Of a stretch of DNA of 64,000 nucleotides, positions 8,785 through 61,971 are shown one piece after another. Position 1 is the stretch's first letter. Each line of letters opens with the position of its first letter. Position numbers and translations under genes: made by a program. Location of the stretch: contig JAGTRJ010000025.1 in the NCBI GenBank assembly GCA_018261755.1, positions 1 to 64,000 of the forward strand, written 5' to 3'. Below the pieces are notes generated by a model. That model was given only the letters and a program-made list of their open reading frames with translations, was not told the origin of the DNA and did no database searches. This DNA is from Burkholderiaceae bacterium (GTDB lineage Bacteria; Pseudomonadota; Gammaproteobacteria; Burkholderiales; Burkholderiaceae_D).

Positions 8785-8815
8785 CGTTCCACCTTCCATT
8801 TTCATCATTATTTAA

Positions 8816-8892
8816 GGGGTATATAGCAAAAACATGCCGCCGGGCCACATATTACGCGGCTATTTTCAAATACTGGCACCAGTATATTTTTC
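8816..8892 (+). repeat. dispersed repeat, copy A (short form)
   Basis: Short-form copy reading GGGGTATATAGC, then GGGCCACATATT and the palindrome ATACTGG-CA-CCAGTAT followed by ATTTTT. It fills the ispD-ispF gap. The ispD stop codon (TGA on the minus strand) abuts and slightly overlaps its right end. The 3' TGACC...GTCAG module is absent. Confidence 0.8.
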
Positions 8893-9583
8893 ACGTGTGT
8901 TGGCTCAAAAACAGTTCCGCCAGCGCGATATCAGCCGCCAGCGTGACCTTGCTGTTGCGCTGATGCCCTTCAACCAGCTTCGGCGACAGCCCCAGCACCT
9001 CGATCGCGCTCGCTTCATCGGTCACGTTCGCATTCTGCCGCAGCGCCCTCAACAACAGCGCGTGGCGGAACATCTGCGGCGTTTGCGCCAGCCACAGGCC
9101 GTCGCGCGGCACGGTCGTCACCTTGCCGTCGGCCACGCGCTTGACCGTATCGACCACTGGCAATGCCAGCAGGCCGCCGACCGCGTCGTCGCCAACCTCG
9201 GCCATCAGCTTGTCGATCAACTGCGGCGTGATGCCGGGCCGGGCCGCATCGTGCACCAGCACCCAGTCGTCATCCCGCACCGTCACGTCAGCCTGCCGCA
9301 TTGCCTGCAAGCCGTTGAGCACCGAATCGCGCCGGGTCGCGCCGCCGCAGCGCAGCAGCGTCACGCCCGCCGTGCCGGCCGGAAACGCACTGTCGATCCA
9401 GCCATCGCCCTCGCTGACAACGATGAAGGTGTGCGCAACCGCAGCACAGGAGAGAAAAGCCTGCGCCGCATGACGCAGCATCAGCTTTCCCGCCAGCGGC
9501 AGGTATTGCTTCGGCACTTCGGCACCGAGACGCGTGCCGACGCCGGCGGCTGGGATCAGGGCAAAATATCGTGGCTGGCTCAT
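8891..9583 (-). CDS. ispD: 2-C-methyl-D-erythritol 4-phosphate cytidylyltransferase IspD
   Basis: Transfers CMP from CTP to MEP in isoprenoid synthesis. The nucleotide-binding signature AAGVGTRLGAEVPKQYLPL is at the N-terminus. RRDSVLNGL, the VHDAARP signature and TDEASAIEVLG complete the family pattern. From MSQPRYFAL it has 230 residues, as expected; an in-frame ATG 48 bp earlier would add a non-conserved extension. It is divergent from mfd. Confidence 0.95.
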   Translation of the reverse strand: MSQPRYFALIPAAGVGTRLGAEVPKQYLPLAGKLMLRHAAQAFLSCAAVAHTFIVVSEGDGWIDSAFPAGTAGVTLLRCGGATRRDSVLNGLQAMRQADVTVRDDDWVLVHDAARPGITPQLIDKLMAEVGDDAVGGLLALPVVDTVKRVADGKVTTVPRDGLWLAQTPQMFRHALLLRALRQNANVTDEASAIEVLGLSPKLVEGHQRNSKVTLAADIALAELFLSQHT

Positions 9584-23227: not shown

Positions 23228-23360
23228 ATGGTTACTGAAGGTTGAAAGCCCGGAATTTTATCAGGGCGAAATGTCTGCTGCATGACGCCCGCCATCTGCT
23301 GGCAAACGTTCTGTAACAGCGCCAATGCCGTCAAAACGACGCATCAGCCGGAAAATAGGC

Positions 23361-23437
23361 GAAAAATATACTCCACCGTGTATTTATAAAGTACCTCGGA
23401 ATATGTGGCCCAGCCCATGCTTTTATACATATACCCT
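23361..23437 (-). repeat. dispersed repeat, copy B (short form)
   Basis: On the minus strand it reads AGGGTATATGTATAAAAG, then GGGCCACATATTC and AAATACACGGTGGAGTATAT followed by TTTTC. It begins 24 bp past the truB stop. The 3' module is missing. Confidence 0.75.
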
Positions 23438-23461
23438 GCCATTTAATCCGATTCATGGGCG

Positions 23462-35456: not shown

Positions 35457-35602
35457 AACAGGCTGCTGAAAAACGTCGCGAGGATGGTTAGATGCAAGGC
35501 GCACGGAGCGCAGGAACCGGAATGTACAAGATGTACATGAGGATTCCGAGCACCGCGCAACGCCGCAGATGACCCACCACAGTAGTTTTTCAGCAGGCTG
35601 TT
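35457..35602. mobile_element. MITE-like element, copy 1, 146 bp
   Basis: Bounded by 18-bp terminal inverted repeats AACAGGCTGCTGAAAAAC and GTTTTTCAGCAGGCTGTT with one mismatch. The interior has TGTACA twice, nested in a CGGAAT...ATTCCG hairpin. It has no coding capacity, lies between two genes, and its right end supplies the stop codon (TAA) of the flavin reductase gene. Confidence 0.8.
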
Positions 35603-36149
35603 AAACACCCGCCGGAATTTTCGACCGCATCAGCTTCTTCCGCTCAAGCCTGCGCCCGTCCACAATGAAAGTGCCATCGCCAACGGCATGGATCGTGCGC
35701 TGCTCCTTGCGCGCAGCATCGACGTAAGCCGCCACGCCTTCGAGCAGCACGATGTTGTGCTTCTTGACGATATCGACCACCCGGCACTCGATATTCGCCA
35801 GGCATTCCTTAATCAGCGGCGCGACCACCTGCCTGCCCTGCACCGGCGTGAGCGAAAACCGTTCGAACTTGTCGCCATCCTTGCCACAACAGGTGCCGAT
35901 GCCGACCACCTTGTCCAGCAGATCGACGCCCGGAATCGCCAGCACGCACTCCTTCGTTTTCTTTAGCGCGGCAAACGAATGGTTCCACGGCCCGGTGGTG
36001 AGCGCGAAAACCGGCGTGAAATCGTTCACCATGGTCCACGAAATCGTCATCACGTTGCTTTGCTTGCCGTCGTTCGTCGTCACCAGCACCACCGGCCCGG
36101 ACTCCATCAGCGTGAAAGCCCTGCCGAGCCGAATTTTCCTCATTGCCAT
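35601..36149 (-). CDS. flavin reductase-like domain protein
   Basis: FMN-binding split-barrel protein of 182 residues. Blocks SGPVVLVTTNDGKQSNVMTISW, PWNHSFAALKKTKECVLAIPG (both shortened from longer matches) and VGIGTCCGKDGDKFERF fit the flavin reductase/DIM6-NTAB family. GGGAGG 5 bp before the ATG fixes the start; the open frame extends 49 codons further without support. Its stop TAA is formed by the end of a MITE-like element, so the extreme C-terminus (KIPAGV) may have been altered by insertion. Confidence 0.85.
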   Translation of the reverse strand: MAMRKIRLGRAFTLMESGPVVLVTTNDGKQSNVMTISWTMVNDFTPVFALTTGPWNHSFAALKKTKECVLAIPGVDLLDKVVGIGTCCGKDGDKFERFSLTPVQGRQVVAPLIKECLANIECRVVDIVKKHNIVLLEGVAAYVDAARKEQRTIHAVGDGTFIVDGRRLERKKLMRSKIPAGV

Positions 36150-36332: not shown

Positions 36333-36450
36333 GGGGTATATGCTTAAAAACAAGCTCAGGGCCACATTTTTGCTGGCTGTTTAAAAATACACCACCCAGT
36401 ATATTTTTCAGCCTTATTGACCAAAAATGCGTTTTGAGTCAGTTATTTTG
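36333..36450 (+). repeat. dispersed repeat, copy C (long form)
   Basis: 118-bp copy: GGGGTATATGCTTAAAAA, GGGCCACATTTTT, GCTGGCTGTTTAAAAATAC, then AGTATATTTTTCAGCC, then a 3' module with TGACC and GTCAGTTATTTTG. It aligns without gaps to copy D with about 16 mismatches in 118 positions and has the same orientation. Confidence 0.85.
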
Positions 36451-36620
36451 GTGTGAAGCATGAGAACTGGACGGGACAACAGACCGTTGATGGTGCCAGC
36501 GCACAGCCATTCAGGATGAATAATGGTGGGCTGTTCCCCATTATCTCTCTTGCGCAAGGGTGGCCTACGCTGCAAGCGAGAGTGTCGCTTGGTCGAACAG
36601 TTCGAGTGCAGTTGGCATAT
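36451..36620. other. low-GC spacer between repeat C and hypothetical gene
   Basis: No convincing gene. A frame on the plus strand from 36516 encodes 48 residues ending ENCCK, but it has no similarity I recognise and overlaps the end of the neighbouring gene. Confidence 0.35.
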
Positions 36621-37160
36621 TCATCTCTGCATGTTTTGATTTATGAAAATTGCTGCAAATAGCGCCTCTTCATTTGTTGTTTGAATGTCTGGGCAAGTAA
36701 AAGCTGTCGGTTTCCAAGGTCCCGGCATATCACCACCAGCCCTTATGTAAAGAACCATTTCACCTAGTAATTTCATGTCCGTGCGACGGTTCACTTGGAC
36801 AAATGTTCTTTTCACAGAAATTTCGCCGGGGTTGAGCGCTGGTGCGCCCTGAGCGTAGTATTCGACTTTGCGGGTGTACAGATATTCCGCACCAAGCGAG
36901 TTTTCTCCTTGAGTTGGTTCATAGAAATTCACCTGCCCCCACTGGTTAAATTTCTCCGGTGGCAGTACCACCTGTTCATAAACCCTGATTCCGCCATCCT
37001 TAGCGCACAAATTCCTCACCTTGGCATCTTGAAATGCTTTGTAGATTTCGAAGCTGATGAACAATCCAATAGTGATGACGAAAATCGCAACCAGTGGAAA
37101 CAAGCAACCAGTTAAACAGCCTGAGCGAGTTGTCTGTTTTTTATTCTGGTCTTCATCCAT
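36621..37160 (-). CDS. membrane-anchored hypothetical protein in low-GC patch
   Basis: A 179-residue protein: short charged, cytoplasmic N-terminus (MDEDQNKKQTTRSG), one membrane helix (CLFPLVAIFVITIGLFISFEI region, residues 18-40), then a periplasmic domain beginning LCAKDGGIRVYEQVVLP. The LCAKDGG-x-VYE motif recurs in uncharacterised betaproteobacterial envelope proteins. AGGAG 5 bp before the ATG sets the start. Base composition is clearly lower in GC than the neighbours, and the gene is flanked by directly repeated copies C and D, suggesting it came as a unit. Function unknown. Confidence 0.7.
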   Translation of the reverse strand: MDEDQNKKQTTRSGCLTGCLFPLVAIFVITIGLFISFEIYKAFQDAKVRNLCAKDGGIRVYEQVVLPPEKFNQWGQVNFYEPTQGENSLGAEYLYTRKVEYYAQGAPALNPGEISVKRTFVQVNRRTDMKLLGEMVLYIRAGGDMPGPWKPTAFTCPDIQTTNEEALFAAIFINQNMQR

Positions 37161-37339
37161 ACAAACTCCTATCAATGTCCTGTGCCATGTATGGGTTAAA
37201 CCCATTTTTCAGAAAGAAAACACAAGAAAACAGGGGACAGACCACAATTAGCCAACTACCGCAATTCCCTTTTCCTACACCCCGCTCTCCTTACGCCCTG
37301 CCCTTATGCGTACAAATTGACCATAAAGCAAGTTATGAC
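37161..37339. other. AT-rich spacer upstream of the low-GC gene
   Basis: No gene. It includes CAGGGGACAGACCAC near 37231-37245, a motif I associate with ends of REP/IS200-like elements, but no transposase is nearby. Confidence 0.35.
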
Positions 37340-37457
37340 GGAGTATATGGCTAAAACCCAGCACCGGACCACGGTTTTACTGGCTGTTTAAAAATACACC
37401 CACCAGTATATTTTTCAGCCTTAATGACCAAAAATGCGTTCCGAGTCAGTTATTTTG
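37340..37457 (+). repeat. dispersed repeat, copy D (long form)
   Basis: 118-bp copy beginning GGAGTATATGGC and sharing CTGGCTGTTTAAAAATAC, AGTATATTTTTCAGCC and the TGACC...GTCAGTTATTTTG module with copy C. It lies 87 bp beyond the nadC stop. Confidence 0.85.
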
Positions 37458-37543: not shown

Positions 37544-38410
37544 CTAACCAAAGATGCGCAGCGAGTAGTCGGTCGCGTGCAGGTCTTTGGTCAACGAGCC
37601 GACCGAGATCCGATCGACACCGGTTTCGGCGATTGAACGCACGCTGTAGAAATTGACGCCGCCGGAGACTTCCAGCACCGCCCGGCCCGCGTTCAGTTTC
37701 ACCGCAGCGCGGATGTCTTCCAGCCGGAAGTTGTCGAGCATGACCGATTTCGCGCCGCCGTCGAGTGCTTCCTGCAATTGCGCCAGCGATTCGACTTCAA
37801 TCTGCACCGGCACGCCGGCATTCAGCCCCTGCGCGGTTTGCAGCGCGGCCGTGATGCCGCCGGCGGCCGCGATGTGGTTTTCCTTGATCAGGATGCCGTC
37901 ATACAGCGCCATCCGCTGGTTCGCGCCGCCGCCGACGCGCACCGCGTATTTCTGCGCCAGCCGCAAGCCGGGCAGCGTTTTGCGCGTGTCCAGGATTTCG
38001 GCTTTCGTGCCGGCCACCAGTTGCACGAACTTGCGCGTGGCCGTGGCGACGCCGGACATCATTTGCAGGAAATTGAGCGCGGTGCGCTCGGCCGTCAGCA
38101 GCGAACGCGCCGGGCCGGTAATCCAGCAGACTTGCATTTTGGCCTGCAGGTCATCGCCCTCGGCATAGCGCCAGTCGAGCGTCAGGCGTGGATCGACCTG
38201 CTTCATCACTGCTTCGAACCACGGCGCGCCGCACAGCACCGCCGGCTCGCGCACGATCACGCAGGCTTTCACTTCCTTGTCGCCCGACACCAGTCGGCCG
38301 GTGACGTCGCCGCTGCCGATGTCCTCGGCCAATGCGGCCGCCACATTCGCTTCCAGCGCCGCCGCCAGTTGGTCGTCAAACGGCGCGAATCGGTTGTTCA
38401 GGTTGCTCAT
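37544..38410 (-). CDS. nadC: nicotinate-nucleotide pyrophosphorylase NadC
   Basis: Quinolinate phosphoribosyltransferase, final enzyme of de novo nicotinate mononucleotide synthesis; 288 residues. [52 protein letters not shown] (seen as DTRKTLPG and KYAVRVGGG), HR-like NQRMALYD and [11 protein letters not shown], plus VEVESL-like [10 protein letters not shown] match the family; the barrel ends ISVGSLTKD. The start overlaps the nadA stop as ATGA, so the two NAD genes form a coupled pair. Confidence 0.95.
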
Positions 38411-40552: not shown

Positions 40553-40597
40553 TCGAGGTCCACTGACGCGACAAACTGAAAGTTGCAAACAGCAAAC

Positions 40598-40735
40598 ATG
40601 CGGCTAAAAAACGTAGCGAGGATGGTTAGAGGCAAGGCGCACGAAGCGCAGGAACCGCAATGTACACGAGTACATGAGGATTTCGGGCAGCGCGCAACGC
40701 CGCAGATGACCACCGCAGTAGTGTTTCAGCCGCCG
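40598..40735. mobile_element. MITE-like element, copy 2
   Basis: Second copy with degraded ends: GCGGCTAAAAAAC on the left and GTGTTTCAGCCGC on the right. The interior is clearly homologous to copy 1 (AGCGAGGATGGTTAGA, AATGTACA, GCGCAACGCCGCAGATGA). It lies 45 bp after the DUF4124 gene and ends at the ftsB stop. Confidence 0.7.
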
Positions 40736-48530: not shown

Positions 48531-48562
48531 ACACCAACGAAGAACGCTAGCGGCACAGGCCC

Positions 48563-48679
48563 CAAATAACTGACTTAAATGGATTCCGGGTCAGTAAGCC
48601 CAAAAAATATACTCCAGCCAGTATTTAAAAACAGCCAGCAAATATGTGGCCCGGCGCATTGTTTTGACTATATACCCCC
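48563..48679 (-). repeat. dispersed repeat, copy F (long form)
   Basis: On the minus strand GGGGGTATATAGTC, GGGCCACATATTTG, CTGGCTGTTTTTAAATACT, GGAGTATATTTTTTGGG and the 3' module CTGACCCGG...GTCAGTTATTTG. It begins 33 bp after the methyltransferase stop. Confidence 0.85.
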
Positions 48680-51078: not shown

Positions 51079-51098
51079 CAAAGCTTTCAATGCCGGCG

Positions 51099-51147
51099 AA
51101 AAACCAATGACCACAGCGCCCCCGCCAGCCTGCGAGGCCTGTGGTCA
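51099..51147 (-). terminator. expression-platform hairpin of the riboswitch
   Basis: On the minus strand TGACCACAG and CTGTGGTCA form a perfect 9-bp stem around a 22-nt loop with its own GCCT/AGGC stem, followed by ATTGGTTTTT. The 5' arm overlaps the end of the aptamer (TTTTGACC), so aptamer and hairpin cannot form together. Confidence 0.65.
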
Positions 51148-51250
51148 AAAGTCTTGCCAAGCATATGCCGCCTGCGCCATGGCTATTTGTGCCAAGTATG
51201 TTGACGCAGGCCACTCCATTGCGGAGCGCGGCTACTCCCTGATGACGGGG
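51143..51250 (-). ncRNA. yybP-ykoY manganese riboswitch aptamer
   Basis: On the minus strand the RNA contains GGGAGTAGCCGCG, then GCGTCAACATACTTGG, then GCTTGGCAAGACTTTTGACC. These are the conserved L1 and L3 blocks of yybP-ykoY RNAs (GGGGAGTAGC; GTCAACATACT; GGCAAGAC). It precedes a GDT1-type gene, the classic partner. The exact 5' limit is uncertain by some tens of bases. Confidence 0.85.
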
Positions 51251-51253
51251 CGC

Positions 51254-61853: not shown

Positions 61854-61971
61854 GGGGGTATATAGCAAAAATACGCCGCCGCGCCACAGTTTTGCTGGCT
61901 GTTTTAAAATACTGGGCGGAGTATATTTTTAGGCCTTACTGACCCGAAATTCATTTCGGTCAGTTATTTTT
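61854..61971 (+). repeat. dispersed repeat, copy G (long form)
   Basis: GGGGGTATATAGC, GCGCCACAGTTTTG, CTGGCTGTTTTAAAATACT, GGAGTATATTTTTAGGCC, and a near-perfect 3' stem CTGACCCGAAAT...ATTTCGGTCAG. A second copy of the terminal box (GGTCAGTTATTTTGAC) follows at 61999-62013. Confidence 0.87.

Follow-up and report, generated by a model that had tools for sequence, protein, structure and literature searches.

The 64-kb window of DNA analysed here, from the Burkholderiaceae genome G000, contains two copies of a 118-nt repeat, C (36333–36450) and D (37340–37457), both on the plus strand. Their left neighbour is a flavin reductase-like gene (PF01613; 35601–36149, minus strand, with its ATG at 36149) and their right neighbour is nadC, encoding quinolinate phosphoribosyltransferase (37544–38410, minus strand). 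The initial annotation described C and D as direct repeats with about 16 mismatches in 118 positions, and the ungapped alignment contains exactly 16 (86.4% identity; blastn E 1.5e-36 within the window). It also placed a single low-GC gene of unrecognised function between them, and this was borne out: on rough ORF calls the interval holds one ORF of 194 aa (36621–37205, minus strand) with a GC content of 0.448 (44.8%, against 59.1% for the window) and no Pfam match. The C–D interval as a whole has a GC content of 0.465, and only 0.9% of 888-bp windows over 475 kb of G000 are equally low. To the right of C lies a stretch denoted the R-arm (36451–36545, plus strand), which contains a RAYT/REP-type motif, M (AATGGTGGGCTGTTCCC, 36522–36538, plus strand). 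The left flank of D, denoted the L-arm (37228–37339, plus strand), contains the same motif reversed (GGGGACAGACCACAATT, 37233–37249, plus strand, 0 mismatches) at the right edge of the cargo. The cargo thus has AANNGTGGTCTGTCCCC at one edge and its reverse at the other, both pointing inward.

The product of the cargo gene has one transmembrane stretch, judged by eye, and a soluble part akin to lipoproteins encoded elsewhere in both G000 and its sister species, G001; the gene itself has only distant relatives elsewhere in these two genomes. A phage or plasmid origin was considered and rejected, the cargo having no match in plasmids, phages or viral contigs, and the pattern of repeat and R-arm was likewise unmatched in viral contigs. 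Elsewhere in the window, a second repeat type is present in two copies 5.1 kb apart and 89–93% identical (35457–35602 and 40595–40711), starting with AACAGGCTGCTGAAAAACG and ending near 35602 in the inverse CAGCAGGCTGTT, and a manganese riboswitch (yybP-ykoY, 88 bits) lies at 51081–51252.

C and D belong to a large family, of which the window holds at least six copies, C and D included; among them are copies at 61855–61970 (plus strand) and 48561–48678 (minus strand), a diverged copy at 8814–8934 (plus strand) and a short one of about 80 nt at 23350–23439 (minus strand). Covariance-model searches returned at least 150 matches in G000 and 148 in G001, and no family match in G002, the third genome of the genus. 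The density, 48 matches in 475 kb of G000 and 60 in 540 kb of G001, corresponds to about 10 per 100 kb. In an alignment of 21 copies the ends are sharp, from GGGGTATAT to GTCAGTTATTTT, and most copies share no similarity in their flanks. The 3′ end, which folds better than shuffled sequences (mean −7.6 vs −3.8 kcal/mol), can adopt a hairpin with a T-rich stretch after it, resembling an intrinsic terminator and weak in D; a consensus RNA fold of 68 copies retained almost no conserved structure overall. Neither C nor D matched a known RNA family at the Rfam gathering thresholds, and at E ≤ 5 the single match was at chance level and fell outside both. A LexA-like reading of the inner palindrome was abandoned, as only a half-site was recognised by eye. 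Several copies (e.g. L206:8601–8719 and L195:15496–15613) extend 6–11 nt into the end of the right-hand gene, which may thus take its stop codon from a TAA within the repeat; on rough ORF calls the right-hand gene points at the repeat in 48 of 66 copies. The short version, about 80 nt and lacking the 3′ hairpin, was seen in the window copy at 23350–23439 and at L003:1471–1549 in G014, a distant copy that sits in another genus of the family.

With a length of around 100 nt, hundreds of copies, sharp bounds and an intergenic location, the family resembles MITEs and ERIC/Correia-type repeats, but terminal inverted repeats are absent (5′ GGGGTATAT vs AAAATAACTGAC, the reverse complement of the 3′ end). 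All seven full-length copies with both flanks recognisable in the sister species are occupied there too; hence no empty site was seen among them, and none is available for recognising a target-site duplication. Three short copies are also present in the sister, and a further short copy, itself weak, gave an ambiguous result. Since all seven testable full-length copies are common to the two species, the family is old and vertically inherited, with no visible mobility now. The initial annotation proposed that the repeats can bracket and move cargo; as a general property of the family this is unsupported: these seven copies have stayed put since the split, and among 108 family matches (about 1 Mb of G000 and G001 combined) a direct pair around low-GC cargo occurs only at this locus in each species. 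No relevant literature on comparable repeats or cargo was found, and the 118-nt repeat is apparently a very abundant and undescribed intergenic repeat of an uncultured Oxalobacteraceae-like lineage.

The locus is known from two genomes, the second being G001, a fragmented soil metagenome-assembled Burkholderiaceae genome. Its nadC is 94% identical to that of the window, and contig G001:C19 carries, in order, C (L021:658–776), the R-arm (G001:C19:774–869), two low-GC membrane ORFs, D (L021:2199–2316) and nadC. Both repeats therefore predate the split between the species. Between the arms the sister carries DNA unrelated to that of the window, and since the same C and D enclose unrelated genes, the cargo is exchangeable: the repeats are fixed and the genes between them turn over. 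The colinearity also bears on an assembly artefact, in which contigs would have been misjoined at the repeat. Both genomes are multi-contig and the element is repetitive, but an independently assembled sister with the same order on one contig makes such an explanation barely credible. The flavin reductase gene of the sister is broken; two contigs (L021:1–467 and L070:1–98) start with an identical 97-nt sequence beside its two parts, probably the terminus of an insertion element.

The limits of the exchanged DNA can be drawn from the arms, all of which are short. The R-arm of the window is 88% identical to that of the sister and 81% to a third occurrence described below (C41), and the L-arm is 84% identical to C41, but its identity to the sister is near the shuffled level, and left of D the two species can be aligned for only about 20 nt adjoining the repeat. 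As the R-arm is kept in the sister and the left flank of D is not, the replaced DNA extends from motif M (36522–36538) to about 20 nt before D; the tract thus reaches across the left arm almost to D, and its left edge is the REP-type motif 71–87 nt past the right end of C rather than C itself. Following the check suggested in the initial annotation, the flavin reductase–nadC interval was compared in relatives. The state predicted there, a single repeat and no gene, was not found: the sister keeps both repeats around other genes, and none of the relatives examined has a single-repeat, cargo-free allele. The separating pattern named in the same place, the gene without the repeats or the reverse, did not appear either, the 79 other nadC loci compared, mostly from Oxalobacteraceae, having no repeat, no cargo and no neighbouring flavin reductase, and the sister having the repeats with different cargo.

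A tree of 68 family copies unites C, D, their two counterparts in the sister and one further copy (G000:C41:28782, referred to as the C41 copy) in an exact five-member clade (support 0.92). With at least 150 copies in the genome, the closeness of C and D alone would be unremarkable, but the shared exact clade is remarkable, and it identifies C and D as duplicates of a single repeat. The same clade speaks against two independent insertions of neighbouring family members with an unrelated gene gained between them. At about 10 copies per 100 kb, chance pairs within 1 kb are expected somewhere in the genome, yet random insertions would be unlikely to yield this clade, and we consider this origin very improbable. 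At the C41 copy, the left flank of D and the right flank of C are contiguous with the repeat. Among 40 genomes the arms occur only at the present locus, at C41 and, for the R-arm, at the sister orthologue; an R-arm match in G011, which belongs to another genus, was dismissed as a 25-nt coincidence that lacks motif M. In topology, the C41 arrangement equals the junction expected from recombination between C and D, or a donor that could give rise to both by one crossover. The C41 block measures 315 bp, is bounded by reversed M and M, and sits in a 2.87-kb segment with diguanylate cyclase and hydrolase genes that is missing from the orthologous site of the sister. Comparing the left and right halves of C and D separately with the C41 copy gave no clean crossover point inside the repeat. 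A phage or plasmid source of the C41 unit was also rejected, with no match among plasmids or phages.

In combination, these observations would fit a cargo-turnover spot formed when copies of a common intergenic repeat recombined, with a donor crossover and later inner replacement, an interpretation to which we give about an even chance. It would start from a single repeat with the flavin reductase gene on its left and nadC on its right. A donor, possibly a DNA circle, would have carried a cargo gene beside a repeat with arms of the C41 type (L-arm, repeat, R-arm), and ordinary homologous recombination with the resident repeat, Campbell style, would have produced the order repeat, R-arm, cargo, L-arm, repeat. 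Once the two species had separated, the stretch from M to about 20 nt before D, comprising cargo and left arm, would have been replaced in at least one lineage, either through insertion of a module bounded by the motif or by a double crossover in homologous flanks, namely C with the R-arm to the left and D with nadC to the right. The capture by repeat recombination put forward in the initial annotation thus stands in part: the cargo swap in the sister, the C41 junction and the duplicate nature of C and D argue for it, but the left edge of the exchanged DNA lies at M and not at C. Three further points tell against the crossover: the missing single-repeat, cargo-free relative, the want of a clean crossover point within the repeat, and the RAYT-type motifs at the ends of the C41 arms, for which homologous recombination alone has no need.

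The position of M lends itself to a different explanation, in which a REP-bounded module (M, cargo, reversed M) is placed by a RAYT-type transposase acting in trans and the 118-nt repeats are bystanders. Homology in the R-arm stops at M in all three sequences (window, sister and C41), and the geometry of M, cargo and reversed M recurs around other low-GC genes (G000:C19:91039/91956 and G002:C9:115328/116357). Exact M is present in 16 of 185 genomes of the class, with zero control matches, and inverted copies flank Y1 transposase genes in G122:C14 (PF01797 match, E 7e-14) and G060:C60. Inverted REPs flanking RAYT genes are a described hallmark (PMC2817692), and to this extent M, as the inverted terminal REP of Y1 genes in other genomes, resembles the RAYT/REP systems (REPIN, BIME; PMC2817692, PMC3116915), as does the presence of high-copy short repeats in intergenic DNA. 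Moreover, G000 and G001 encode one Y1 transposase each (G000:C19:31644 and G001:C136:6707). However, both of these genes are flanked by inverted motifs of a different type, GGGGTCGGAGT, and M does not flank the gene in G000. At the Y1 genes that do carry it, M runs the other way (reversed M, gene, M), whereas here it encloses an unrelated gene and points inward. Nor would the module explain the duplication of C and D or the C41 junction, and we rate it as possible but rather unlikely. The 118-nt repeat departs from RAYT/REP elements in flanking no Y1 gene in G000 or G001 and in not being a short palindrome; its assignment as the REP of the resident transposase was rejected, since the nearest copy is one-sided and beyond another gene, and the flanking motif is GGGGTCGGAGT.

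A literature search on M returned nothing relevant; M may be either an active boundary for insertion or an edge at which recombination is frequent. A second turnover spot was observed behind a DUF6933 gene common to G000 (C19:91039–91956, L066) and G001 (C142:17073–18658, L067): in both species M comes directly after its stop codon, and the DNA beyond M differs between the two, with low-GC lipoprotein genes in G000 and other genes in G001. In G122, which has 23 exact copies of M in 2.4 Mb, reversed M and M often stand 10–30 nt apart near stop codons (contigs C10, C14 and C22; L083–L085); these copies are probably a REPIN population with its Y1 transposase at C14:8597–9286.

As in genomic hotspots, sister species carry different accessory genes at this locus while the conserved genes on either side are the same, but the locus differs from them in that its frame is a member of a dispersed repeat family present here in duplicate. 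As an ordinary hotspot, it would have arisen by local duplication of the repeat, illegitimate entry of cargo and later allele exchange via core genes, the repeats and motifs remaining passive. The core genes on the nadC side are 92–94% identical between the species, enough for homologous exchange, and the repeats elsewhere are static and unlinked to cargo. Conversely, the coincidence of the breakpoints with M and the edge of D, and the joining of both arms at C41, are left unexplained, and we regard this origin as unlikely. Finally, the arm-bearing repeat subtype (C, D and C41) might constitute a dedicated cassette site, at which circles with one repeat would insert or exchange cargo in an attC-like manner without an integron integrase. 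Repeats of about 118 nt around a low-GC gene of unknown function, and variable cargo, recall integron cassettes. The repeat ends, GGGGTATAT and GTCAGTTATTTT in the 21-copy alignment, nevertheless contain no GTTRRRY/RYYYAAC cores, there is no array, and most copies of the repeat are solitary and old; such a site appears quite improbable.

Repeat recombination with later inner replacement, at about even odds, remains our preferred reading of the flavin reductase–nadC interval. The locus itself provides a two-species example of accessory genes being replaced within a frame of duplicated dispersed repeats that stay fixed, and a third locus, C41, carries the reciprocal junction. In several genomes a RAYT-type motif borders single genes that are lineage-specific, and the placement of M raises the testable question of whether RAYT-type motifs mark the points at which cargo enters.
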